Shown here piece by piece: positions 38,611 to 64,000 of a stretch of DNA of 64,000 bases. Made by a program: the position numbers and the translations under genes. Numbering within the stretch: position 1 is the stretch's first letter; every line of letters begins with the position of its first letter. Location of the stretch: NCBI RefSeq assembly GCF_018326265.1, contig NZ_AP023360.1, forward strand, positions 4,559,501-4,623,500, given 5' to 3'. This DNA is from Catellatospora sp. IY07-71 (GTDB lineage: Bacteria > Actinomycetota > Actinomycetes > Mycobacteriales > Micromonosporaceae). Below the pieces are notes generated by a model, which was not told the DNA's origin, searched no databases, and saw nothing but the letters and a program-made list of their open reading frames with translations.

Positions 38611-39243
38611 ATGTCCCGTGTCCTCAGGGCAGCCGTCGCCGCGGCGGCCGCCGTGCTCCTCACCGCCGGGCTCGGCGCCGCCCCCGCGGGCGCCACCCCG
38701 CCGAACATCCCCTCCTACAGCACCGCGCTGAGCCGGCTCAACGCGCTCACCGTCGCGGCCGAGTCGCACGCGTCCACCTACAACCGCGACCTGTTCCCGC
38801 ACTGGATCACGATCACGGGCTCGTGCAACACGCGCGAGCAGGTGCTCAAGCGGGACGGCACGAACGTGGTGGTCGACAGCAGCTGCGCGCCGACCTCCGG
38901 CTCCTGGTACAGCCCGTACGACGGCGCGACCTGGTACGCCGCCGCCGACATCGACATCGACCACATGGTGCCGCTGGCCGAGGCCTGGGCCTCCGGCGCG
39001 TGGGCGTGGACGACCGCCAAGCGCCAGACCTACGCCAACGACCTCGGCGGGCCGGAGCTGTGGGCGGTCACCGACAACGTGAACCAGTCCAAGGGCGACA
39101 AGGACCCGGCCGAGTGGCAGCCGCCGCGCTCGGCGTTCCGCTGCACGTACGCCCGCGCCTGGATCCAGGTGAAGTACTACTACGCCCTCACCGTCGACAG
39201 CGCCGAGAAGTCCGCGCTGAACAGCATGCTCGCCACCTGCTGA
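38611..39243 (+). CDS. secreted HNH-type nuclease (DUF1524/GmrSD C-terminal-like)
   Basis: A 210-residue exported protein, ATG 38611. Signal peptide 1-29 (AAVAAAAAVLLTAGLGAAPAGA). The nuclease motif is DIDIDHMVPLAEAWASGAW (His and Asp near residue 118), followed by the Asn/His-finger region NVNQSKGDKDPAEWQPP. Cys pairs (GSCNTREQ, SSCAPTS, FRCTY, ATC) suggest disulfides. Members are extracellular DNases. A 36-bp repeat that can act as terminator follows 44 bp after the stop. Confidence 0.87.
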   Translation: MSRVLRAAVAAAAAVLLTAGLGAAPAGATPPNIPSYSTALSRLNALTVAAESHASTYNRDLFPHWITITGSCNTREQVLKRDGTNVVVDSSCAPTSGSWYSPYDGATWYAAADIDIDHMVPLAEAWASGAWAWTTAKRQTYANDLGGPELWAVTDNVNQSKGDKDPAEWQPPRSAFRCTYARAWIQVKYYYALTVDSAEKSALNSMLATC

Positions 39244-39342: not shown

Positions 39343-39870
39343 TCAGGGCGCCGCGATGCGGTCGCGCAGCAGCGGGATCCAGTGCTCGCCGTAGCGTTCG
39401 CGCAGGTCCGGCAGCAGCCAGTCGGAGCCGGTGACCGTGCCGCGGCACAGGTCGGCGCCGCACGCGCACGCCATGGTGAAGTCCGCGACCGCGGTGGTGG
39501 TCGCGTAGTCGTTGGTGATCTCCTCGCCGGGCGCGATGTCGCGCCGCGCGGCCAGGGTGTACGCGTCGATCCACCACAGGTTCGGGTCGCAGCTGTGGTT
39601 GCCGTAACCGTTCGGGCGGCGCGGCGGCAGCACCAGGTGCAGGTCGTCGCCGACCGTGATGGTGTCCACGTAACGGTGCTCGCGCGCCGCCTCGGCGAAC
39701 AGCTCCCGCAGCGTCGCTCCGTCGACGAGGTGTCCTCCCAGCCGGGACACGATGGTCCCGGCCGGGAGGAACCCCCTCGCGAACAGCCCGCGGCCCGCGA
39801 TCGGCGACTCCCGCACCTCGACCTCGGGGTGCAGCCAGCAGTCTCTCGCGGGTTCGGTCACGGGCGTCAT
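39343..39870 (-). CDS. SET-domain protein
   Basis: A 175-residue protein with a compact SET lysine-methyltransferase fold: EVEVRESPIAGRGLFARGFLPAGTIVSRLGG, then YGNHSCDPNLWW (the pseudoknot N-H-S-C), APGEEITNDYATTT, and a post-SET-like cluster CACGADLCRG. It would methylate a protein lysine using SAM; the bacterial target is unknown. It is the downstream gene after a small coiled-coil gene with a 15-bp gap, so the two may be co-expressed. Confidence 0.87.
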   Translation of the reverse strand: MTPVTEPARDCWLHPEVEVRESPIAGRGLFARGFLPAGTIVSRLGGHLVDGATLRELFAEAAREHRYVDTITVGDDLHLVLPPRRPNGYGNHSCDPNLWWIDAYTLAARRDIAPGEEITNDYATTTAVADFTMACACGADLCRGTVTGSDWLLPDLRERYGEHWIPLLRDRIAAP

Positions 39871-42955: not shown

Positions 42956-44035
42956 ATGTCGAGACTGCGCGCCATCATCGCGCTCGTGGCCATGACGGTC
43001 GCGGGTGGACTGATGGCGATCCTCCCCAGCACCGCGGCGTCGGCCGCGGCCTGCGCCACCGCCTGGCAGTCGTCGGCCGTGTACACCGGCGGCATGCAGG
43101 TCTCCCACAACGGCCGCAACTACCAGGCCAAGTGGTGGACCCAGAACGAGGCCCCGCCCGGCACCACCGGCGTGTGGCAGGACCTCGGCGCCTGCGGCAC
43201 CACCACCCCGCCGCCCGGCGGCACCTGCAACTACCCGAACTGGGCCGCCGGCACCTGGTACACCACCGGCACGATCGTGCGCTACACCAACGGCCTGTAC
43301 TACATCGCCGAGCACGACAACCCGGGCTACGACCCGATCATCAGCACCTGGTACTGGGACCCGTACAACTGCTCCGGCACGCCGCCGACCAGCAGCCCGC
43401 CGCCGACCAACCCGGGCGGCTTCGTGGTCACCGAGGCCCAGTTCAACCAGATGTTCCCGGGCCGGAACTCGTTCTACACGTACTCGGGCCTGGTCGCGGC
43501 GCTGAGCGCGTACCCGGCGTTCGCCAAGACCGGCAGCTCGACCGTGCAGCGCCAGGAGGCCGCGGCGTTCCTGGCCAACGTGCACCACGAGACCGGTGGT
43601 CTGGTGTACATCGTGGAGCAGAACACCGCGAACTACCCGCACTACTGCGACGCCGGCCAGTCCTACGGCTGCCCGGCCGGGCAGGCGGCGTACTACGGCC
43701 GCGGGCCGATCCAGCTGAGCTGGAACTTCAACTACAACGCGGCCGGCAACGCGCTGGGCCTGCCGCTGCTCACCAACCCCTGGCTGGTGCAGAACGACGC
43801 CGCGGTGGCCTGGAAGACGGGCATCTGGTACTGGATGACCCAGAACGGCCCCGGCACCATGACCCCGCACAACGCGATGGTCAACGGCGCGGGCTTCGGT
43901 GAGACGATCCGCAGCATCAACGGCTCGATCGAGTGCAACGGCGGCAACCCCGCCCAGGTGCAGAGCCGCGTCACCAAGTACCAGCAGTTCGTCGGCATCC
44001 TCGGCGTGCCCGCCGGGAACAACCTGTACTGCTGA
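42956..44035 (+). CDS. secreted GH19 chitinase with two chitin-binding modules
   Basis: A 359-residue exported enzyme. Signal peptide 1-31. First module CATAWQSSAVYTGGMQVSHNG...WTQNEAPPGTTGVWQDLG (about 33-80) is a CBM5/12. A second Cys-bounded module CNYPNWAAGTWYTTGTIVRY...WYWDPYNC (about 90-140) is also chitin-binding-like. After a Pro/Thr linker comes the GH19 domain, with catalytic Glu212 in NVHHETGGLVY and the substrate-cleft motif YYGRGPIQLSWNFNYNAAG. It lacks the longer loops of plant class I enzymes. It hydrolyses chitin by inversion. A terminator hairpin follows. Confidence 0.92.
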   Translation: MSRLRAIIALVAMTVAGGLMAILPSTAASAAACATAWQSSAVYTGGMQVSHNGRNYQAKWWTQNEAPPGTTGVWQDLGACGTTTPPPGGTCNYPNWAAGTWYTTGTIVRYTNGLYYIAEHDNPGYDPIISTWYWDPYNCSGTPPTSSPPPTNPGGFVVTEAQFNQMFPGRNSFYTYSGLVAALSAYPAFAKTGSSTVQRQEAAAFLANVHHETGGLVYIVEQNTANYPHYCDAGQSYGCPAGQAAYYGRGPIQLSWNFNYNAAGNALGLPLLTNPWLVQNDAAVAWKTGIWYWMTQNGPGTMTPHNAMVNGAGFGETIRSINGSIECNGGNPAQVQSRVTKYQQFVGILGVPAGNNLYC

Positions 44036-44651: not shown

Positions 44652-45251
44652 ATGTTGGCCTTTGAAGTGTTCGCCTACTCCCTGGTGATGGTCCTGTTCA
44701 TCGCCCTGGTGATGGTGCTGGTGTTACGCGTCGGCGGACGGCCGGCGCCGCCGACAGGGGACGTACCCCGTGATCCTGCGCGCGGCGTCGGGAAGCAGCC
44801 GCGGTCCGGGCCGGACCAGCCTGCTCACGGGCACGAAGTGGCGGGGCGCTCCGGCGGCGGCCGGCACAACGCCGAGCAACACGGGCAGCCCGGCGCTTCG
44901 GGTGACACCCCCTCGCGGCAGCCGAAGTCCGACCCGCCGCCCGGCAGCCAGGTCACGACTGCGACTGCTGAGCAGGGCAGCAGGGTCGAGCCGGTCGAAG
45001 AGAGCGGGCCGCCGGCCGCCGGTTCGCCGCTGCCGCCGGGATTGTGGCCCGTGGCCGGGGAGACCGTGACGACGTGGACCCGCCTCACGGATGCGGGCGG
45101 CTACGTCGTCAGCCAGGGCCTCCTGCTCTGGGCGGTGCCTGAGCGGCGGCTCGCCACCGCTGTCGCACCGGCCCGGCCATGCGAGGTCGTCTGGTTCGAC
45201 CGCACCAGGGATGCCGTGATCGTCAGACCGATGAAGCAGGGGATGCAGTGA
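44652..45251 (+). CDS. TerY-P operon gene 1: single-pass membrane protein
   Basis: A 199-residue protein from ATG 44652 (AGAGG upstream). Residues about 3-27 (AFEVFAYSLVMVLFIALVMVLVLRV) are a membrane helix. A disordered Pro/Gly/Ser/Gln-rich linker follows to about 135. The C-terminal 60 residues (PGLWPVAGETVTTWTRLTDAGGYVVSQGLLLWAVPERRLATAVAPARPCEVVWFDRTRDAVIVRP) look like a small beta domain. No family was recognised. Its stop overlaps the vWA GTG by four bases, so it belongs to the operon and may anchor the complex at the membrane. Confidence 0.75.
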   Translation: MLAFEVFAYSLVMVLFIALVMVLVLRVGGRPAPPTGDVPRDPARGVGKQPRSGPDQPAHGHEVAGRSGGGRHNAEQHGQPGASGDTPSRQPKSDPPPGSQVTTATAEQGSRVEPVEESGPPAAGSPLPPGLWPVAGETVTTWTRLTDAGGYVVSQGLLLWAVPERRLATAVAPARPCEVVWFDRTRDAVIVRPMKQGMQ

Positions 45252-45979
45252 CCAACAACGCATTGGGTGGGCAGGCGAACAGCCGGCTGCTGATCACGCT
45301 GGTGCTCGACACGTCGGGGTCCATGAAGGGCAATCGGATCGCCCAGCTCAACAAGTTCCTGTCCGAGCTCAAGCAGGCGCTGGACAAGGACAAGTACATC
45401 AACAGGGTGGGCGAGGTCGCGATCGTCACGTTCGGCAACGACGGCGTCCGGGCGATCACCGGAACGAGCGCGACCAGCCACTTCGTGGCGGTGAACGCGT
45501 TCACCGCGCCGTCCCTGGAAAGTGGTGGCTTCACGCCGATGACCAAGGCGCTCCGCCTGGCGCTGAGCCTGGTCACCCGGCGTAAAGCCGAACTGCGGAC
45601 CAGCGGCATCCCGATGGCGCACCGCCCGTTGATCTTCCTGGTCACCGACGGCCTGCCGACGGACGATCAGGGCAACCTGTCGGCGGACTGGCGCGAGGTC
45701 GCCGCGGAGCTGCGCCGGCAGGAGTCCGGCAAGCACCTGCACATCTTCTCGTTCGGGGTTGCCGACGCCGACGCCGCGGTCCTGCAGGGGCTGGCGCCCA
45801 AGTCGACGTATCAGATCGACGACGTGGACTTCTCCGCGGTGCTCCAGCTGATGTCGATCAGCCTGGAGCTGGCCCGCAGCGCCTCCAACGACGGCGACGC
45901 CGACGAGCTTTACGAGTCGGTTCGCAAGCGCAACGAAGTGCGCAAGGCGATGCAGAAATTCCTCCAGGGGGACAAGTAG
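45248..45979 (+). CDS. TerY-like von Willebrand factor A domain protein
   Basis: A 243-residue protein from GTG 45248, almost entirely one vWA domain. The MIDAS motif LVLDTSGSMKG lies at residues 18-27, the conserved Thr in GGFTPMTKALRLAL and the third MIDAS element in LIFLVTDGLPTDD. This is the TerY form found in tellurite-resistance-type and other signalling modules. It binds a divalent cation and should mediate protein-protein contacts. One base separates it from the PP2C gene. The vWA-PP2C-kinase order is the TerY-P triad described for such systems. Confidence 0.9.
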   Translation: MTNNALGGQANSRLLITLVLDTSGSMKGNRIAQLNKFLSELKQALDKDKYINRVGEVAIVTFGNDGVRAITGTSATSHFVAVNAFTAPSLESGGFTPMTKALRLALSLVTRRKAELRTSGIPMAHRPLIFLVTDGLPTDDQGNLSADWREVAAELRRQESGKHLHIFSFGVADADAAVLQGLAPKSTYQIDDVDFSAVLQLMSISLELARSASNDGDADELYESVRKRNEVRKAMQKFLQGDK

Positions 45980-45980
45980 C

Positions 45981-46823
45981 ATGGGCCGCTCCTTCGCCGC
46001 AGACTGGCGGCTGGCCACCGTCTCGGTCCCCGGGCCGAGCCACACCAAGGCCGGCAAGGAAAACCAGGACGCCGTACGCAGCCTGCGCGTCGCACCGGAC
46101 CGGCACCTGTTCGCCGTCGCGGACGGTGCCGGCTCCCAGGAACGCTCGGCGCTGGGGGCGCGAATCGCGGTGGACGTCGCCTGCGAGGCCGCGGCTGTGG
46201 TGTTCGCCGCCGACCTCGGCGATTCCCGGGCCAGGTGGGAGTCGGCCACGATCCGGTTCACCAAGCTGTGTTTCGAGTGGTTCGACCAGCGCGTGCTGGC
46301 CATGGCGGACACCATCCGGGAGCAGGGCGACAGGCTGGGACACGGCTCGGGCACCACGGTGAGCGTCGACGACTTCGCCACCACGCTCCTGGCGGTGCTG
46401 GTGTGTCCGCCGTGGTTCTGCGTGCTCAACGTCGGCGACGGCTTCATGGTGCTGCGCCGCCGGCCCGGTGGTCTTCACCTGGTCGTGGCACCGCCGCTCA
46501 ACCGGTCCAACGCGGGCCTCACCACGTTCCTCACCTCGCCCAGCCGCAACCAGCAGCCCCCCTGCTTCGTGGTGGCCGACCCTCGGGTGACGGGACTGGC
46601 GATTTCGACCGACGGGCTGGTGGAGGCGCTGCTCGAGGCCGAGACCATCGACGACGAGCTGCACCATCTGGTGCCCGCGCGGTTTCATCACGTCTTCACC
46701 CACCTCGACGACCCCCAGGAGGACGTGTACGCCCTCAACCACCTGCTCAGCTCAGACAGGTGGGCGGCCACCTCCAACGACGACAAGACGATGGCGCTGG
46801 CCGTGCTGCGGGACCGCCGATGA
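45981..46823 (+). CDS. PP2C-family protein serine/threonine phosphatase
   Basis: A 280-residue PP2C fold. GKENQDAVRSLRV and LFAVADGAGSQERSALGARIAV carry the metal Asp and D-G motif. FATTLLAVLVCPPWFCVLNVGDGFMVL matches the central strands, ISTDGLVEAL is the penultimate metal motif and TSNDDKTMALAVLRD the final D-D. It is expected to remove phosphate from Ser/Thr of partner proteins with Mn2+/Mg2+, opposing the kinase encoded next. The kinase ATG overlaps its stop (ATGA). Confidence 0.9.
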   Translation: MGRSFAADWRLATVSVPGPSHTKAGKENQDAVRSLRVAPDRHLFAVADGAGSQERSALGARIAVDVACEAAAVVFAADLGDSRARWESATIRFTKLCFEWFDQRVLAMADTIREQGDRLGHGSGTTVSVDDFATTLLAVLVCPPWFCVLNVGDGFMVLRRRPGGLHLVVAPPLNRSNAGLTTFLTSPSRNQQPPCFVVADPRVTGLAISTDGLVEALLEAETIDDELHHLVPARFHHVFTHLDDPQEDVYALNHLLSSDRWAATSNDDKTMALAVLRDRR

Positions 46824-48097
46824 GCGCCGAACGGGTCTTCCTGCGCGGCGGCCGTCAGGTGCACCTGAGTGAGCCGATGATCGGTCAGGGCGCCGAAGGT
46901 TACGTCCTGTCGGTCAAGGACCAGCCGCGGATCTGCGCCAAGCTGTACATCGAGCCCACGGATCTGCACCGCACCCGCATCGAGGCGCTCGTCGAGCTGC
47001 CGCCCGCGGACTGGAGCGGGGACTGCGCGGAGCACGTGCACGTGGCGTGGCCGCAGGCGGGTCTGTACGACGAGGAGGGCAAGCTCGTCGGCTTCCTGAT
47101 GTCCCGCGTGGCGGGCATCGCGCTGGACAATCTGTTCGACCACGACACGCCGCAGAACCACGGCCTTGACGACCCCTCCTGGCGCAACCGCATGGTGATC
47201 GCATCCCGCGTCGCCCGGCTGTTCGCGATGCTGCACGAGCGGCAGATCGTGCTTGGCGACATCAAACCGGCGAACCTCGTGGTCGACCAGCATGGCCACG
47301 TCACCCTGCTGGACTGCGACAGCGTGCAGTTCGTGGACCGGCGTACCGGAGACGTCCACAAGCCGACGAAGTTCACTCCGATCTACGCGCCGCCGGAGCT
47401 GCTGTCGACGCAGCACGCCCTGCTCAGCGGCCACCATGACACGTTCGGGCTGGCCGTGCTGATCTGCCGGCTGCTGCTCGGCGGCGACCACCCGTTCGAG
47501 GGCGTGCCCACTCTGGGAGGCGGCGACACCCTCGAGGAGAACATCAGGCGCAACGCGAACCGGGTCACCCAGCCGCGCAGCCTGGTCGAGCTGACGCAGC
47601 TGCCACCGCCGACCCTGCTGCCCCCGCCCGTGTACGCGTTGCTGAAGAAGGCATTCGACGACGGGCGGGCCGACCCGGCCCACCGCCCGGCCGCCAAGAC
47701 CTGGCAGGAGGTGCTGCATCAGGCCGCGGGCGAGCTGACGGAGTGCAGGATCAACTCCTGGCACGCTTACCCGCCCGCCGCGGCGGCCTGTGGCTGGTGC
47801 GCGTTCGTCAAGCAGCACGGCGGTCCGTACTACGTCGGCGGACCGCCCCCGCCCCCGCCCCCGCCGGTGCGGGTGCCGGTGACGTCGCCGGTGCCGGACC
47901 GCGGCCTGCTCGCGAACTCGCCGCCCCGGTCCGGCCCGGTGCCGGTGCAGGTGTACTCACCGCAGCCGGTGCCGACCACCCCCGTGGCGCCGAGCAGCCC
48001 GAAGCGGAAGGTGCCGGTCGGGGCGGTGGTGGTGTTCGCCGTCCTGGCCGTCCTGGCGGCGGTCATCTGCGTGGGCGTCCTGTCGAGGGCGGCATGA
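46820..48097 (+). CDS. TerY-P-type protein kinase with zinc-ribbon-like region and C-terminal membrane helix
   Basis: A 425-residue kinase-like protein. The glycine-rich loop MIGQGAEGYVLSV is followed by ATP-binding Lys41 in CAKLYI. The catalytic loop is VLGDIKPANLVVD (Asp147; HRD has become L-G-D) and the metal loop is LLDCDSVQF (DFG has become D-C-D, Asp165). TPIYAPPELLS is the activation-segment end. Both substitutions are normal for TerY-P kinases. C-RINSW-H-AY...CGWC (about 310-330) matches their degenerate C/H/C/C zinc ribbon. A proline tract leads to a terminal helix (VPVGAVVVFAVLAVLAAVICVGVL), so the kinase faces the cytoplasm from the membrane. Overlaps both neighbours by four bases. 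Confidence 0.88.
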   Translation: MSAERVFLRGGRQVHLSEPMIGQGAEGYVLSVKDQPRICAKLYIEPTDLHRTRIEALVELPPADWSGDCAEHVHVAWPQAGLYDEEGKLVGFLMSRVAGIALDNLFDHDTPQNHGLDDPSWRNRMVIASRVARLFAMLHERQIVLGDIKPANLVVDQHGHVTLLDCDSVQFVDRRTGDVHKPTKFTPIYAPPELLSTQHALLSGHHDTFGLAVLICRLLLGGDHPFEGVPTLGGGDTLEENIRRNANRVTQPRSLVELTQLPPPTLLPPPVYALLKKAFDDGRADPAHRPAAKTWQEVLHQAAGELTECRINSWHAYPPAAAACGWCAFVKQHGGPYYVGGPPPPPPPPVRVPVTSPVPDRGLLANSPPRSGPVPVQVYSPQPVPTTPVAPSSPKRKVPVGAVVVFAVLAVLAAVICVGVLSRAA

Positions 48098-48729
48098 CCG
48101 GGGCGTCCCTGCTCCGGGTGGCGGCGACGCACCCGGCGGCCGACGTGCTCGGCCCCGGCCGCCGCTACGTGGTGTGGGTGCAGGGGTGCCCGCTGGACTG
48201 CGCCGGCTGCGTCAGCCCGCAGTGGATCCCGGACGAGGGCGGCACGGACCTCGGCGTGGAGGAGCTGGCCGCGACCATCGCCGAGAGTGCCGTGGACGGC
48301 CTCACGCTGTCCGGTGGCGAGCCGTTCGCGCAGGCCGAGGCCCTGGTCGAGCTGGTTGCGGCGGTCCGTCGCCGACGTGATCTGTCCGTCATGTCCTATA
48401 CCGGCTTCGTGTTGGAGCGGCTGCGCTCGCACGGCACCGCGGCACAGCGCGCGCTGCTCGGCATGCTCGACATCCTCGTCGACGGCCCCTACGTGCGGCG
48501 GCTGCACGCCGACCTGCGCTGGCGCGGATCGTCCAACCAGCGCGTGCACCTGCTGACGGGGCGGCATGCCGATCTTGCCGGCCTGGCCGACGAGAGCCAG
48601 GGCCTGCAGCTGGAGGTCGCCGACGACGGCGGCCTCCGCTGGATCGGCGTACCCGTGATCCCTGACTTCAGGCAGCGGCTGGAAGCACGTCTCGACCTCA
48701 CCATTCCTGACCGGAAGGAGTCGCCATGA
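48094..48729 (+). CDS. radical SAM activating-enzyme-like protein
   Basis: A 211-residue protein in the small radical SAM class of NrdG/PflA-type activases. The cluster motif is VVWVQGCPLDCAGCVSPQW with Cys32, Cys36 and Cys39 (C-x3-C-x2-C). The SAM-binding GGE is in GLTLSGGEPFAQAEAL. VMSYTGFVLERL and LVDGPYV match the usual later motifs. Such proteins cleave SAM to a 5'-deoxyadenosyl radical and often activate a glycyl-radical partner, but no glycyl-radical enzyme is in the window. Its presence inside a kinase/phosphatase/vWA operon is unusual. Overlaps the kinase stop and the next ATG by four bases each. Confidence 0.88.
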   Translation: MTGASLLRVAATHPAADVLGPGRRYVVWVQGCPLDCAGCVSPQWIPDEGGTDLGVEELAATIAESAVDGLTLSGGEPFAQAEALVELVAAVRRRRDLSVMSYTGFVLERLRSHGTAAQRALLGMLDILVDGPYVRRLHADLRWRGSSNQRVHLLTGRHADLAGLADESQGLQLEVADDGGLRWIGVPVIPDFRQRLEARLDLTIPDRKESP

Positions 48730-49532
48730 GCGGATCCCCGAAGTACAGCACCGCGCAGAGCAGCCGGGAGCGCGCCGAACGCGCCGAACGTGAGCGTGCG
48801 GAGCGCCAGCGGCGCCGCGAGCAGGAGCTGGCGCGGCTGCGGGCCGAGGCCGAAGCGCGGGCGAAGGCGGAGCGCGACGCCCGCCGCAGGCAGGCGGCGC
48901 TCGCGGTGGACGGCCTGCAGGCCCGGCTCACCGTACTGGAGAACGACGCCGCCGCGGCCCGGGTGCACCTGTCCGGCGGCTCGGACACCCAGCGCCTGCT
49001 CGTACGCCTGCGCGCCGACCTTGCGGCGGACCGGCTCGACCGGATCGGCGCGGAGGCCGCGGGCGCCCAGCGCGCGCTGGACACCGCCGAGACCACGCTC
49101 GACGAGCAGATCGACCGGATCGTCGCCCGGCGGGAGCTGGTGCGCGCCCTGGCGGCCTCGATGCCGTCCACCGGGTACGTCATCGACCTGTCGAGCCTGG
49201 ACGAGGACCAGGCGGGAACCATCTCGCTGCGTGCCCGCGCGCTCGACGGGGACGTGCTCGCCGTGGTCGTGCAGGACGAGGACGGCGGCGGCGGGCACCG
49301 TATGGTCTACTCGAACGCCGAGATGCTCCACCAGTCCGACGCCGGGGTGGTCGAGGGCGGCACGTGCACCGACCTCGTGGAGGTCATCACCGTGCTCAAC
49401 CGGTCGGTGGAGCAGGCGGGCTTCGAGGCCGGCGGCGTGCGCTGGGACGACGGAGGGCACGTCCGGCCCGACGAGCGGCGGGCGGAGCAGCGCCCGGCGC
49501 CGGCGCAGCACACCCAGGAGCGGCCCGCATGA
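48726..49532 (+). CDS. operon coiled-coil protein
   Basis: A 268-residue protein. Residues about 10-60 are a charged coiled coil with very high Arg/Glu/Ala content (SRERAERAERERAERQRRREQELARL...). A second helical stretch (RIGAEAAGAQRALDTAETTLDEQIDRIVARRELV) spans about 105-140. Residues 150-245 look like a small alpha/beta domain (GYVIDLSSLDEDQAGTISLRARALDGDVLAVVVQDEDGGGGHRMVY, CTDLVEVITVLNRSVEQAGF). Not assigned to a family. Likely an adaptor or scaffold linking the radical SAM and AAA+ components, by position only. Four-base overlaps at both ends. Confidence 0.75.
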   Translation: MSGSPKYSTAQSSRERAERAERERAERQRRREQELARLRAEAEARAKAERDARRRQAALAVDGLQARLTVLENDAAAARVHLSGGSDTQRLLVRLRADLAADRLDRIGAEAAGAQRALDTAETTLDEQIDRIVARRELVRALAASMPSTGYVIDLSSLDEDQAGTISLRARALDGDVLAVVVQDEDGGGGHRMVYSNAEMLHQSDAGVVEGGTCTDLVEVITVLNRSVEQAGFEAGGVRWDDGGHVRPDERRAEQRPAPAQHTQERPA

Positions 49533-51493
49533 CGGCGGCGGGGCCTCCTGCGGCGGCGTGGCTGTTGCGCGCGTACCAGGAGCTGCAACGCGGCCGCAGC
49601 CTCGTGGTGCACGGCAACGTCGACGACCTGGTGCGGTGGAGCGAGACCTACCAGCCTTTCCCCGCGGCGGTCATGGACTTCCTCTCGGTCAGCGGGTTCC
49701 CGGTGGTCGTGCGGTACGGCCTGGCGGATGGGCTGACCTACTACGACGACGCCTCCCGCCTGTTCACCGCCCCGTTCCTGCAGGTGACGGAGCAGGGGGC
49801 GGCGGGGCCGGCGGCGGCGCACCCGGTCGCGGTGCCGGCGGCGGGCGGGGGAGGGCCGGCCGGCCCGAGCGCGGCGCGCGCCGCCCGGTTGCAGGAGGCG
49901 TCGGACGCGTTGCGCGCGCAGATCGCCGCCGGTCAGACGGCCGAGCCGCGAAACCTGGCCGACGTGCTGTCGGTGCTCCACCGGCTGATGACCCAGCCGG
50001 ATCGGGCGTGCGCCGTCCTGATCGACTCGGCGGAGCTGCTGCTGGGCGACCGGGCCGCGGGCAGCAGCGACCATCTGCGGCACGTCGCCTTCCTGCGCAG
50101 GATGCTCGCCGAGGCGGCCGAGGCGCCGGGCGAGCACAAGCGGCTGCGCAACACCATGGTGTTCGTCTCCGCCGACCGGGCCGCCCTGCCGGCCTGGCTG
50201 CACACCGACAGCCCGTACGTGGCGTCGGTGCTGGCCGAGCGTCCGGATGTCGCGGAGCGCGCGGCGCTGGTAGAGGGCCGGCTCCGGCACTACTACGAAG
50301 GCGAGCAGCTCACGCCGAGCCAGCTCCGGGCCGCGACCTCGGCCATGGCCAGCCTGACCGACGGCATGACGGTGCGCGACATCTGCTCGGTGGAGGTCAC
50401 CTCGCACCTCGCCCGGATCCCGCCGACGTCGGCTCGGCGCCTGGTCGCCCGGCACCGGTTCGGGCTGCGTGACGATCCGTGGGAGCGCCTGGAGATCTTG
50501 AAGATCAAGAATGCCGAGGCCTTGCTGGGCCAGCGGGTCATCGGCCAGCCCGACGCGGTCGCGGCGGTCCACGACGTGCTGGTCAACTCGCGGGTCGGGG
50601 TCGACTTCGCGGCGTCGGACGAGCAGTTCGCGGCGAAACCCAAGGGTGTGCTGTTCTTCGTGGGGCCGACCGGTGTCGGTAAGACGGAGCTGGCCAAGGC
50701 GATCGCGGAGCTCGTCTTCGACGACGAGTCGGCGCTGATCCGCTTCGACATGAGCGAGTACGACCAGCCACACTCCAGCGAGCGCCTCACCGGTTCCCCG
50801 CCCGGCTACGTCGGGCATGAGCAGGGCGGCGCGCTGACCAACTGGGTGCAGGAGCGGCCGTTCAGCGTGCTGCTGTTCGACGAGGTCGAGAAGGCGCATC
50901 CCAAGGTGCTGGACAAGTTTCTGCAGATCATGGAGGACGGCAGGCTGACCGACGGACGCGGGCAGACGGTCTTCTTCTCGCACACCATCGTGATCTTCAC
51001 GTCCAACATCGGTGCCAGCGAGCTGCGCAACCACGGTGTCACCCAGAACACCCCGTACGCGACGATCCGCGACCTGTTCCGTAAGGCGGTGCAGGAGCAC
51101 TTCCTGGCCATCCGCAGGCCGGAGCTGCTGGGGCGGATCGGCGGGGGCGTGGTGGTCTTCGACATCCTCCGGGAGCCGGTGATCCGGGACATCGTCAGCA
51201 AGTTCCTGGGGCTGCTGGCCGCGTCGGCGCGGACACGCGGCCACGAGGTGGTCTTCGACCGTCCGGCGATCGACCGGGCGGTCATCGACGAGATCACCGC
51301 CAACGGCAGCGCCTACGGCGCGCGCGAGATCCGCACGCCCCTGCTGGAGCAGTGGGTGCGCGCCCCGCTCAACCGCTGGATTCTGGAGACCTCTCCCGCG
51401 CCGGGCACCCGCATCCTGGTGCACCGCCGGCCGGACGGCGCGGTTCCGTTCGCCGTGAGCGCCGTCCCGGAGATGAGGGGTCCCGATGACTGA
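49529..51493 (+). CDS. ClpB/ClpA-like AAA+ ATPase with degenerate N-terminal module
   Basis: A 654-residue ATPase. The C-terminal half is a Clp D2-type AAA+ domain: GVLFFVGPTGVGKTELAKAI (Walker A, 379-386), SALIRFDMSEYDQPHSSERLTGSPPGYVGHEQGG (pore-loop region), SVLLFDEVEKAHPKVLDKF (Walker B near 448), IFTSNIGA (sensor 1) and RRPELLGRIGGGVVVF with the finger Arg. The N-terminal 330 residues look like a second ATPase-related module without Walker A (GRSLVVHGNVDDLVRW; AVLIDSAELLLGD; RNTMVFVSADRAALP), comparable to the GNPD-type modules of TerY-P-linked ATPases. No ClpP-binding loop is evident. It probably remodels proteins for the operon. Confidence 0.88.
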   Translation: MTAAGPPAAAWLLRAYQELQRGRSLVVHGNVDDLVRWSETYQPFPAAVMDFLSVSGFPVVVRYGLADGLTYYDDASRLFTAPFLQVTEQGAAGPAAAHPVAVPAAGGGGPAGPSAARAARLQEASDALRAQIAAGQTAEPRNLADVLSVLHRLMTQPDRACAVLIDSAELLLGDRAAGSSDHLRHVAFLRRMLAEAAEAPGEHKRLRNTMVFVSADRAALPAWLHTDSPYVASVLAERPDVAERAALVEGRLRHYYEGEQLTPSQLRAATSAMASLTDGMTVRDICSVEVTSHLARIPPTSARRLVARHRFGLRDDPWERLEILKIKNAEALLGQRVIGQPDAVAAVHDVLVNSRVGVDFAASDEQFAAKPKGVLFFVGPTGVGKTELAKAIAELVFDDESALIRFDMSEYDQPHSSERLTGSPPGYVGHEQGGALTNWVQERPFSVLLFDEVEKAHPKVLDKFLQIMEDGRLTDGRGQTVFFSHTIVIFTSNIGASELRNHGVTQNTPYATIRDLFRKAVQEHFLAIRRPELLGRIGGGVVVFDILREPVIRDIVSKFLGLLAASARTRGHEVVFDRPAIDRAVIDEITANGSAYGAREIRTPLLEQWVRAPLNRWILETSPAPGTRILVHRRPDGAVPFAVSAVPEMRGPDD

Positions 51494-53018
51494 GCCGACG
51501 AATCCCGAGGCGCTGCTGAGCCAGGTCGAAGGCTTCGAGGCGGCCACCGAACTGACCGTGGCGCAGCTGCGCGACTACGTCGGCCGTGAGTCGGAGCTGG
51601 AGGGGATGCTGCAGGCTCGTGCGCTGGGCCACCTGGCCGAGCTGGACTTCGACAGCTGCGTCGAGCTGCTGGACCAGATCATCGGCCTCAACGTGACCCT
51701 GCGTGATGTGATCACCCGGGAGCTGGCGCGGCAGGCGGATACGCTGACCGCCGAGGAACGCCAGGACATCGAGCTGTACCGGGACGCGGCCAGCGGGTAC
51801 ATCATGCTGCTGGAGGGTCAGAAATACTCGGCGCGGGCCGACGAGCAGCGAGTGAACGGGTCGCTGGACCAGTCCGAGCGGTTCAACACCATGGCCATGG
51901 ACTACTACGAGCAGCTCGGCGAGAGCGAGCTGCCGCTCGCCGGGGTCGGCGGCCTGCGCTACCTGCTGGGCAGCGCCTCCCGGGAGATGCTGCACGGCAT
52001 GCGGGAGGTGCGGGCCGGCAACTACCCGAACGCCTACCACAACTTCGACCGCACCCGCGTGCACTACGAGGAGCTGCTGGCGCAGGTGGAGGACAGCCTG
52101 CCCGAGGTCGAGCAGACCGGTCAGGACGATCTCATCCGCAACATCGCCGAGCTGCGTACGGAGCTGATCAGTGGGCTGACCAACGTTCAGGCGCTGCAGT
52201 GTCTCGTGGAGAACCTGCGCGATCTGCAGACGGGCAACTTCCGGTCGGCGGTCGAGTCGGGACGCGAGTCCGTGCGGCTGTTCACCACGTTGGTGGACCA
52301 GGCGATGGCCGCCGGGCACACCCGTAACGCGCTCATGCTGCGGCGGATGGAGCTGTGCCACGCGGAGTCCTGGACCGCGCTGGCAGAAGCGGAGCGCGCC
52401 ATCGACGACCAGGAGTGGGAGCTGTGCCGGCGCTCGGTCAAGAAGGCACGAAGCTTCTGGAACGACGCCCTGCGTATCGCCAATCGCAACGAGATCGTCG
52501 GTGTCGTCGCGCAGCGCCCCGAGAGCGGCAACATGGAGATGCTCCTGCAGAGCGTGCTGCGCAGATGCGACCGGGAGGAGCGCTACCGCAACGACATCGA
52601 ACGGCTCACCCAGCGACTGCACCACATCTCCAGCATCCACGTCACCGCTCAGGGAGGGCACGCCATGACCACGTCGTCGCGGGACGAGTTCAACTTCAAC
52701 GGGCCGGTGGCCGCAGGATCGATCGGTGGTGAGCACAACACCGGCTCGATCCACCAGGTCCAGCAGGTGACGGCGGATCTGACCACGCTCACGCAGGAGC
52801 TCGCGACGTTGCGCTCGATGATCGTGAGTGTGGCCCGCACGCCCGCGGAGCAGACGGTCGCCGACGCCGTCCGCAACGCCGAGGACGCGGCGCGCCAGCG
52901 TGACGAGCCGGCGGTGCGCCGGTACCTCGCCGACGCGGGCAGCTGGGCCCTCGACTTCGCCAGACAGCTGGGCCTCACGGCGGCCACGGCCTGGATCACC
53001 GCCAGCATCGGAGCCTGA
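51486..53018 (+). CDS. long helical protein with Gly/Asn-rich C-terminal motif
   Basis: A 510-residue, almost all-helical soluble protein beginning inside the AAA+ gene (8-bp overlap). Residues 1-390 have repeated helices rich in Leu, Glu and Arg without clear TPR consensus (DYYEQLGESELPLAGVGGLRYLLGSASREML, NLRDLQTGNFRSAVESGRESVRLF). At about 395-425 there is an abrupt Gly/Asn-rich beta-prone motif, DEFNFNGPVAAGSIGGEHNTGSIHQ, followed by a coiled coil (VTADLTTLTQELATLRSMI) and a C-terminal helix. The layout resembles conflict-system proteins in which such a motif mediates assembly, but no family was recognised. It is the last gene; a strong terminator follows. Confidence 0.75.
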   Translation: MTEPTNPEALLSQVEGFEAATELTVAQLRDYVGRESELEGMLQARALGHLAELDFDSCVELLDQIIGLNVTLRDVITRELARQADTLTAEERQDIELYRDAASGYIMLLEGQKYSARADEQRVNGSLDQSERFNTMAMDYYEQLGESELPLAGVGGLRYLLGSASREMLHGMREVRAGNYPNAYHNFDRTRVHYEELLAQVEDSLPEVEQTGQDDLIRNIAELRTELISGLTNVQALQCLVENLRDLQTGNFRSAVESGRESVRLFTTLVDQAMAAGHTRNALMLRRMELCHAESWTALAEAERAIDDQEWELCRRSVKKARSFWNDALRIANRNEIVGVVAQRPESGNMEMLLQSVLRRCDREERYRNDIERLTQRLHHISSIHVTAQGGHAMTTSSRDEFNFNGPVAAGSIGGEHNTGSIHQVQQVTADLTTLTQELATLRSMIVSVARTPAEQTVADAVRNAEDAARQRDEPAVRRYLADAGSWALDFARQLGLTAATAWITASIGA

Positions 53019-53033
53019 CCGGCTGTCACACCT

Positions 53034-53079
53034 CGAAGAGGCCCCCGAAACGTCTACGGACGATTCGGGGGCCTCTTCG
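53034..53079 (+). terminator. operon terminator
   Basis: Perfect 16-bp arms CGAAGAGGCCCCCGAA (53034-53049) and complement (53064-53079); the loop itself can form CGTC/GACG. It is 15 bp after the last operon gene. Confidence 0.9.

Positions 53080-53210: not shown

Positions 53211-64000
<10,790 letters not shown>

Follow-up and report, generated by a model that had tools for sequence, protein, structure and literature searches.

We analyzed an eight-gene operon (g1 to g8, numbered in the order of transcription) in a 64,000-nucleotide stretch of the actinomycete Catellatospora sp. IY07-71 (contig NZ_AP023360.1, positions 4,559,501 to 4,623,500; referred to below as the window). Three of the genes, encoding a coiled-coil protein (g6), an AAA+ ATPase resembling the D2 domain of ClpB (g7), and a small radical S-adenosylmethionine (SAM) enzyme resembling NrdG (g5), represent a conserved core that, as shown by a comparison of 91 loci, is inherited together. 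The case that the g5-type enzyme acts on or with a cysteine of g6 (i.e., Cys214) is good but not conclusive, and we regard this residue as the candidate target. The von Willebrand factor A (vWA) protein, PP2C-type phosphatase, and Ser/Thr kinase encoded by g2 to g4 occur at only 17 of the 91 core loci, which indicates that this triad is one of several exchangeable control sets. The first-pass annotation of the window had treated the triad as the center of the system, a place that the comparison assigns to the core, and it did not include the connection between the radical SAM gene and the g6 cysteine.

The operon exists as first described: all eight reading frames are open, lie on the plus strand between positions 44652 and 53018 of the window, and were recovered with the same coordinates and junctions (Table 1). 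Neighboring genes overlap by 4 bp at g1/g2, g3/g4, g4/g5, g5/g6, and g6/g7 and by 8 bp at g7/g8, and g2 and g3 are 1 bp apart. The proposal that the genes form one transcription unit is supported. The terminator predicted after the operon corresponds to a 46-nt hairpin (minimum free energy, -41.4 kcal/mol for a 60-nt stretch), yet one without a T-run. The G+C content at third codon positions is 0.85 to 0.94 across g1 to g8, and a codon-usage gene caller returned the identical eight-gene set, which is a consistency check only, since the caller was trained on these genes. The start of g1 is ambiguous (44613, 44649, or 44652). The vWA (DTSGS), kinase (GDIKPAN and DCD), and radical SAM (CPLDCAGC) motifs are intact by eye. 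For g1, g6, and g8, no convincing family assignment was obtained from Pfam, NCBIfam, or PADLOC.

Related loci (designated by L numbers) were collected by genome searches, first using g7 as the query and subsequently a related AAA gene from L014. The 79 stretches fetched comprised all above-limit places in the family, order, phylum, and class sets, the top 15 of the first search (including the window), and 20 of the 71 places from family f103, chosen for spread; 8 of 20 plasmid records and 80 loci from a genome scan with a radical SAM alignment were added. Profiles built for this comparison were run over all fetched loci, and 91 loci, including the window, were kept after L063 (ClpB-like, with no core partners) and 76 of the 80 radical SAM scan loci were dropped. 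A radical SAM gene is present at 86 of the 91 loci; at 74 of these, the distance to the AAA gene does not exceed 4 kb. In 22 AAA-holding genomes, there are 31 g5-like genes. Of these, 22 have such an AAA gene at a distance of no more than approximately 10 kb, and a linked gene of this kind is present in 21 of the 22 genomes. The distance matrices of the AAA+ and radical SAM proteins are correlated (r = 0.79 over 29 loci), and none of 5000 permutations gave a value as high.

Carriers of the core include Proteobacteria, Planctomycetes, Cyanobacteria, and Firmicutes, and further high-G+C carriers are presumably Actinobacteria. In the window's family, the L014-type AAA query was positive in 44 of 354 genomes. 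In samples of wider groups, the AAA gene was found in 7 of 348 genomes of the order, 6 of 396 of the phylum, and 9 of 394 of the class, as well as in 68 of 279 evenly sampled genomes of another family, f103. Within the window's genus, 4 of the 11 listed genomes hold the AAA family, and the eight-gene form is found only in the window's genome.

Seventeen loci from eight genera, including the window, share the order vWA-PP2C-kinase-radical SAM-coiled-coil-AAA+ (type I; established from domain midpoints in 15 loci and from reading frame midpoints in L072 and L174) and form one clade of the AAA tree (support, 0.993). The type I locus lacking a radical SAM gene is L071. The recurrence of the same six-gene order in eight genera argues that the association is not accidental, and the tie between the triad and the radical SAM, coiled-coil, and AAA+ genes, first proposed from the window alone, is upheld in other genomes (16 of the 17 loci with the radical SAM gene); the check was run from the AAA+ side and covers triads at loci with the core. 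Further genes vary among these loci. GAP1 and DO-GTPase genes, assigned by profiles (and by Pfam for L013 and L030), are found in seven of them (L013, L025, L030, L066, L067, L070, and L071). A different trio is found in four others (L012, L064, L069, and L072) and includes a member that aligns with the 392-aa DO-GTPase2-like proteins (hhalign, 97.3%), and neither set is present in the stretch read from the window, L011, L062, L065, L068, and L174. DO-GTPase2 was not found in the window's genome, and GAP1 had no match at the locus. With homologs in L011, L012, L062, L065, L069, L072, and L174 (on the opposite strand in the last), g8 occurs at 8 of the 17 type I loci, never together with GAP1.

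The 64 type II loci carry, by definition, a zinc-ribbon/FHA-type gene; 62 have a second kinase, and 60 have a radical SAM gene. For 32 of them, the fetched stretch includes a CHAT match at some position, and Pfam, whose confirmation of FHA or CHAT covers only a few proteins, confirmed CHAT in L013, L014, and L018. The window's genome contains a second core copy, of type II, located 4.2 Mb away (L020, G000:C1:364001-384000). This copy comprises genes for a kinase, a coiled-coil protein with the cysteine, AAA, and FHA, a divergent block in which the radical SAM gene lies, and an adjoining CHAT-type gene. Other architectures account for 10 of the 91 loci. Plasmids of Acinetobacter, Polaromonas, Photobacterium, Leisingera, and Moellerella carry genes annotated as an AAA-domain protein, PIN, a hypothetical protein (coiled-coil), AAA, and a 4Fe-4S protein; on the Photobacterium plasmid, the one tested by Pfam, an SF1 helicase and PIN_4 were recognized. 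A rumen Firmicute plasmid (L036) has the same core together with kinases, FHA, and PP2C. Plasmids L178 to L181 combine a different AAA gene and a DUF2997 gene (L180 also has DUF1257) with a small NrdG-like radical SAM gene; the L179 AAA is not ClpB-like according to Pfam, and this is a second, separate AAA pairing with the enzyme family. Phage carriage was considered and rejected: of the 62 phage records with a match to the plasmid-type AAA, none covers more than 80% of its length, and in the 10 listed, the match is confined to the ClpB-like half. A blastn search of 5426 Escherichia coli genomes found nothing covering 80% of one plasmid-type AAA gene.

The g7 protein matches the ClpB model only at positions 555 to 846 of 853 (258.8 bits; cutoff, 1232.1) and scores 16.1 bits against AAA_3 (MoxR; cutoff, 27). 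Its Walker A, Walker B, and sensor-1 motifs are at least 90% conserved in 31 homologs, as is the pore loop (Table 1). On the basis of these conserved motifs and the known biology of ClpB, g7 is predicted to thread clients. The region ahead of its AAA domain has no PDB match under E 0.6, and the possibility that it forms a second AAA domain was rejected (hhalign probability, 0.3%). In L064, a single 1136-aa polypeptide contains both the coiled-coil and AAA portions, a fusion in support of a physical g6-g7 complex.

The cluster motif and family match place g5 in the radical SAM superfamily (25.9 bits and 1.3e-5 against Pfam Radical_SAM; cutoff, 29.5). The GGEP and GSxNQ motifs, which take part in SAM binding, are at least 90% conserved across 29 relatives of g5, as are the three cluster cysteines. 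The best NCBIfam match is NrdG (TIGR02491; 101.6 bits, below the cutoff of 126.1), and the closest solved structure by sequence is the PFL activase 3c8f (E, 8e-6). NrdD was not found in 21 of the 22 genomes, including that of the window (control matches in 6 of 14), and g5 is no ordinary NrdG; on this ground and the subcutoff score, a working NrdG was rejected. In the sole NrdD-bearing genome, another radical SAM gene adjoins NrdD. A glycyl-radical enzyme as the common partner was likewise rejected: Gly_radical matches occur in 7 of the 22 genomes, none of them at these loci. The window's genome has a radical SAM gene encoding a 35%-identical protein approximately 1.5 kb from its glycyl-radical gene.

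The coiled-coil family is highly divergent (median identity, 17% among 41 cluster representatives), and g6 matches no specific family (a TolA-like coiled-coil match at 0.003). In the first survey alignment, a cysteine occupies the Cys214 site in 59 of 67 sequences (including the nonmember L063). The site was then read at 87 of the 91 loci, leaving out L038, L077, L158, and L161, where it is unresolved; it was assigned by eye in L032, L043, L064, L082, L167 to L169, L172, L173, and L175, checked by eye in L044, and taken from hmmalign in the rest. The cysteine is present at every locus where the radical SAM gene is co-oriented (71 of 71), at 7 of 11 where it is divergent, and at 2 of 5 with none found, a category that includes L044 and L164 although their contigs end beside the locus. 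The contrast between co-oriented loci and all others (71/71 versus 9/16) gives a Fisher p value of 2e-6, uncorrected for kinship. Losses fall at three places of the AAA tree, namely, L017/L054 (Gln), L043/L044 (Ala), and L167 to L169 (Arg), and perhaps represent two or three events, since the latter two groups are neighbors in the tree with weak support. The sisters L017 and L054 lack a dedicated radical SAM gene as well as the cysteine, their genomes yielding only weak radical SAM matches (4e-5 to 3e-8), while their own sister L015 keeps both. Two other candidate targets were rejected: an N-terminal MSG-type motif of g6 is missing in 32 of 83 scanned coiled-coil loci, and hyp400 of the divergent block has no column with at least half Cys in 18 sequences.

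Several observations weigh against this interpretation. The loci were mostly found via the AAA+ gene, so the AAA+ side of the linkage exists by construction, and the radical SAM-led search retained the core in only 4 of 80 loci. Among the 76 dropped, 71 had no AAA-profile match (some being short contigs), L080 and L081 had another AAA class, and L099, L121, and L137 had weaker AAA matches. The radical SAM family as a whole thus occurs in other contexts too. One glycine of g6 is as well conserved as the cysteine (61/67 versus 59/67). The cysteine is lost while the radical SAM gene is kept in L043 (Ala) and L167, L168, and L169 (Arg), where that gene sits in a divergent block; the L044 contig ends before such a gene. 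Conversely, L071 keeps the cysteine with no local radical SAM gene, the only radical SAM match in the genome being at another locus, L068. Compared with L025, L066, L067, and L070, the rest of the L071 locus is kept, and the radical SAM gene is absent from between the kinase and coiled-coil genes. In L080 (Actinomadura sp. J1-007) and L081 (Saprospiraceae), a radical SAM gene adjoins a coiled-coil gene with no cysteine at the site, followed by a gene for a multi-AAA-domain protein of the other class. Finally, 32 of the f103 carriers belong to a single genus (g466), a pattern more like that of a fixed trait than of a roaming defense system.

Balancing these points, we give an even chance to a machine in which the g5-g6-g7 core operates under phospho-control, with the radical SAM enzyme acting on or through an adaptor. 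In this scheme, g6 would be the adaptor of the g7 unfoldase, and g5 would act on or via g6, most likely at Cys214, thereby licensing or tuning the adaptor. The membrane-anchored kinase, the PP2C phosphatase, and the vWA protein would switch the complex by phosphorylation, g4 and perhaps g1 would tether it to the membrane, and g8 may serve as a subtype-specific scaffold, target, or client. In response to a stress or infection signal, g7 would then unfold or disassemble a client. The CHAT, PIN, SF1 helicase, and GAP1-N2 GTPase partners point to conflict or programmed responses, while the large number of carriers in a single genus suggests that the system is also of use without infection. A function in conflict or stress response is likelier than one in metabolism, and the system may serve in defense. 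As a tentative generalization, these loci may encode AAA+ machines of a previously undescribed class. In these, a glycyl-radical-type activase put to a new use would chemically modify one cysteine of the coiled-coil adaptor of the unfoldase as a radical-installed license, and controls and effectors would be interchangeable across bacterial phyla. The controls would possibly be the vWA-PP2C-kinase and FHA-kinase sets, and the effectors a CHAT protease, a PIN-helicase pair, and GTPases.

Other explanations account for part of these data. The system could serve cell maintenance (i.e., envelope or protein quality control, or development) as an AAA+ remodeler under phospho-control that is kept vertically in some lineages. 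The 32 carriers of g466 (from the even sample of 279 genomes of the family, in which carriers alone were counted) and the membrane anchors agree with this, the GAP1-N2 systems also being thought to act near the membrane (PMC7159879). The patchy occurrence in the order and phylum and even among the listed genomes of the window's genus, the plasmid-borne forms, and the CHAT, PIN, and SF1 helicase partners speak against it, and we consider maintenance a somewhat unlikely function. Rather than modifying a target, g5 might use its oxygen-sensitive 4Fe-4S cluster as a redox or iron sensor, with Cys214 being redox active or in contact with the cluster and the unfoldase gated by stress. Most hosts look aerobic, as we infer, no classical glycyl-radical target adjoins the loci, and a single cysteine tracks a co-oriented enzyme gene. 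However, the 29 homologs conserve not only the three cysteines but also the GGEP and GSxNQ motifs, for which a protein that merely senses would have no need, and we consider a sensor improbable.

Two further explanations were considered. A TerY-P tellurite- or metal-response locus with extra genes would explain the triad and its order. This is disfavored to the point of being very improbable, given that g2 lacks a TerY_C domain, that g2 and g3 are unmatched in PADLOC, that TerD is absent from the genome, and that the triad is confined to so few of the core loci. That g5 is a true NrdG in an accidental neighborhood would fit its best NCBIfam match but neither its score nor the distribution of NrdD. 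With a different radical SAM gene beside the one NrdD found and with linkage at 86 of 91 loci, we give this explanation practically no credence, and for the window's genome, where no NrdD was found, it is refuted. The phospho-controlled core with a modified adaptor is the reading that we prefer, and one that is directly testable, as it indicates a single residue to mutate. If an NrdG-like enzyme modifies an unfoldase adaptor, this would be a new kind of posttranslational control. Glycyl-radical-type activases would also acquire a new role, in hosts with no ribonucleotide reductase for them to activate. To our knowledge, the use of radical chemistry by machines of bacterial conflict or stress has received little attention.

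Table 1. Features of the operon and its flank (positions in the window)
Feature	Coordinates	Strand	Remarks
g1, 199 aa	44652..45251	+	One N-terminal membrane helix (predicted), small C-terminal domain
g2, stand-alone vWA protein	45248..45979	+	MIDAS motif DTSGS; Pfam VWA 4.8e-16
g3, PP2C-type phosphatase	45981..46823	+	Pfam PP2C_2 2.1e-33
g4, Ser/Thr kinase	46820..48097	+	Pkinase 4.8e-13; GDIKPAN catalytic loop, Pro-rich linker, C-terminal membrane helix (predicted)
g5, NrdG-like radical SAM enzyme	48094..48729	+	Fer4_12 4.5e-33; no auxiliary-cluster domain recognized
CX3CX2C cluster motif of g5 (C32, C36, C39)	48187..48210	+	At least 90% conserved in 29 relatives
g6, coiled-coil protein	48726..49532	+	Conserved C-terminal domain (residues ~140-250) found across architectures
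Cys214 codon of g6	49365..49367	+	Near-invariant; only Cys of g6
g7, ClpB-D2-like AAA+ ATPase	49529..51493	+	AAA residues ~320-634; AAA_2 1.8e-50; ~318-residue N-terminal region ahead
PPGYVG pore-loop motif of g7 (residues 424-429)	50798..50815	+	At least 90% conserved in 31 homologs
g8, long helical protein	51486..53018	+	C-terminal FNFNGPV...GSIGG segment; accessory of this subtype
Terminator-like hairpin	53034..53079	+	46 nt, 16-bp stem, no T-run, after g8 stop

Hydropathy predicts a single membrane helix each at the N terminus of g1 and the C terminus of g4 (3.24 at residue 403 in g4), in agreement with the anchors proposed at the outset for these two proteins. The kinase has one CxxC (CGWC), no zinc-ribbon match, and the transmembrane helix at its end. 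Weak relatives of g1 occupy the same position in L011 (E, 0.001) and L012, and the L012 protein leads to further relatives in L062, L064, L065, L069, and L072. The helical character of g8 was read from its sequence by eye rather than predicted by a tool. This protein matches a CARF-HEPN model of PADLOC weakly (4.9e-5 over 71 residues) and has no PDB sequence match under E 0.1; a first scan of genome contigs with g8 alone found no relative.

The operon is followed, after approximately 190 bp, by a large nonribosomal peptide synthetase gene (53211 to 64000; AMP-binding, PP-binding, and condensation domains) that runs off the window. Upstream lie genes for a family 19 chitinase with a CBM5/12 module (42956 to 44035), a SET-domain protein on the minus strand (39343 to 39870; 2.7e-11), and a 210-aa protein with a hydrophobic N terminus and a GmrSD_C-type nuclease domain (38611 to 39243; 1.1e-9). 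SET-domain proteins are uncommon in bacteria.

Among known systems, TerY-P was the first to be invoked for this operon. In PMC11090510, its consecutive vWA, PP2C, and kinase genes, which are attached to other systems, are described as a possible phospho-switch, and TerY-P-like modules whose kinase has an OB fold are cited as being antiphage. The three genes are adjacent here as there, but the window differs in that its kinase ends in a membrane helix and in that the Pfam scan of g2 found no TerY_C domain. Pfam contains a model of that domain. PADLOC left g2 and g3 unmatched at E 0.01, its matches being restricted to the kinase and AAA domains and the weak one of g8. The TerY-P label thus survives as an analogy only. 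The accompanying statement that Ter genes are absent stands for TerD (PF02342), which has no match in the window's whole genome (control matches in 2 of 14) and was the only Ter family searched; there is no sign of a tellurite locus.

The core has its own relatives. NrdG and the other glycyl-radical activases are, like g5, small radical SAM proteins with CX3CX2C, GGEP, and GSxNQ, but here no glycyl-radical partner adjoins, and an AAA+ gene is linked instead. ClpB/Hsp104 shares the D2 AAA domain with its GYVG pore loop, whereas the match of g7 is limited to D2, preceded by a region of its own, rather than covering a full-length N-D1-M-D2 protein. MkoA of Mokosh is matched by the SF1 helicase encoded on the Photobacterium plasmid (7.9e-93); such a helicase is found only in the plasmid architecture and is absent from the window. 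The FtsH ternary systems described in PMC7159879 combine a vWA protein, an AAA+ ATPase, and a radical SAM enzyme for which modification of a partner is proposed. All three are shared with the window, but the AAA protein of those systems is of the FtsH type, has two AAA domains, and is accompanied by MoxR-vWA, whereas the operon has a single ClpB-D2-type AAA and no MoxR.

The published theme that the triad fits is the third one of the GAP1-N2 systems, which in Actinobacteria comprises genes for a kinase (with a zinc ribbon or transmembrane helices), PP2C, and a stand-alone vWA protein (Kaur et al. 2020, PMC7159879). The section on this theme mentions no radical SAM, coiled-coil, or ClpB-like genes, and "radical SAM" appears once in the main text, figures and supplements aside, for another system. 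Likewise, no description of the coiled-coil/AAA+/radical SAM core was found in the open-licence PMC literature, figures and supplements aside. The kinase-PP2C-vWA theme is already in print, while no report was found of the core and its candidate cysteine. The triad of the window matches the published one, and GAP1 and DO-GTPase genes lie near the same triad in the seven sister loci listed above, although the window has no GAP1 at the locus and no DO-GTPase2 in its genome. With the core found beside this triad, the published GAP1-N2 theme gains parts.

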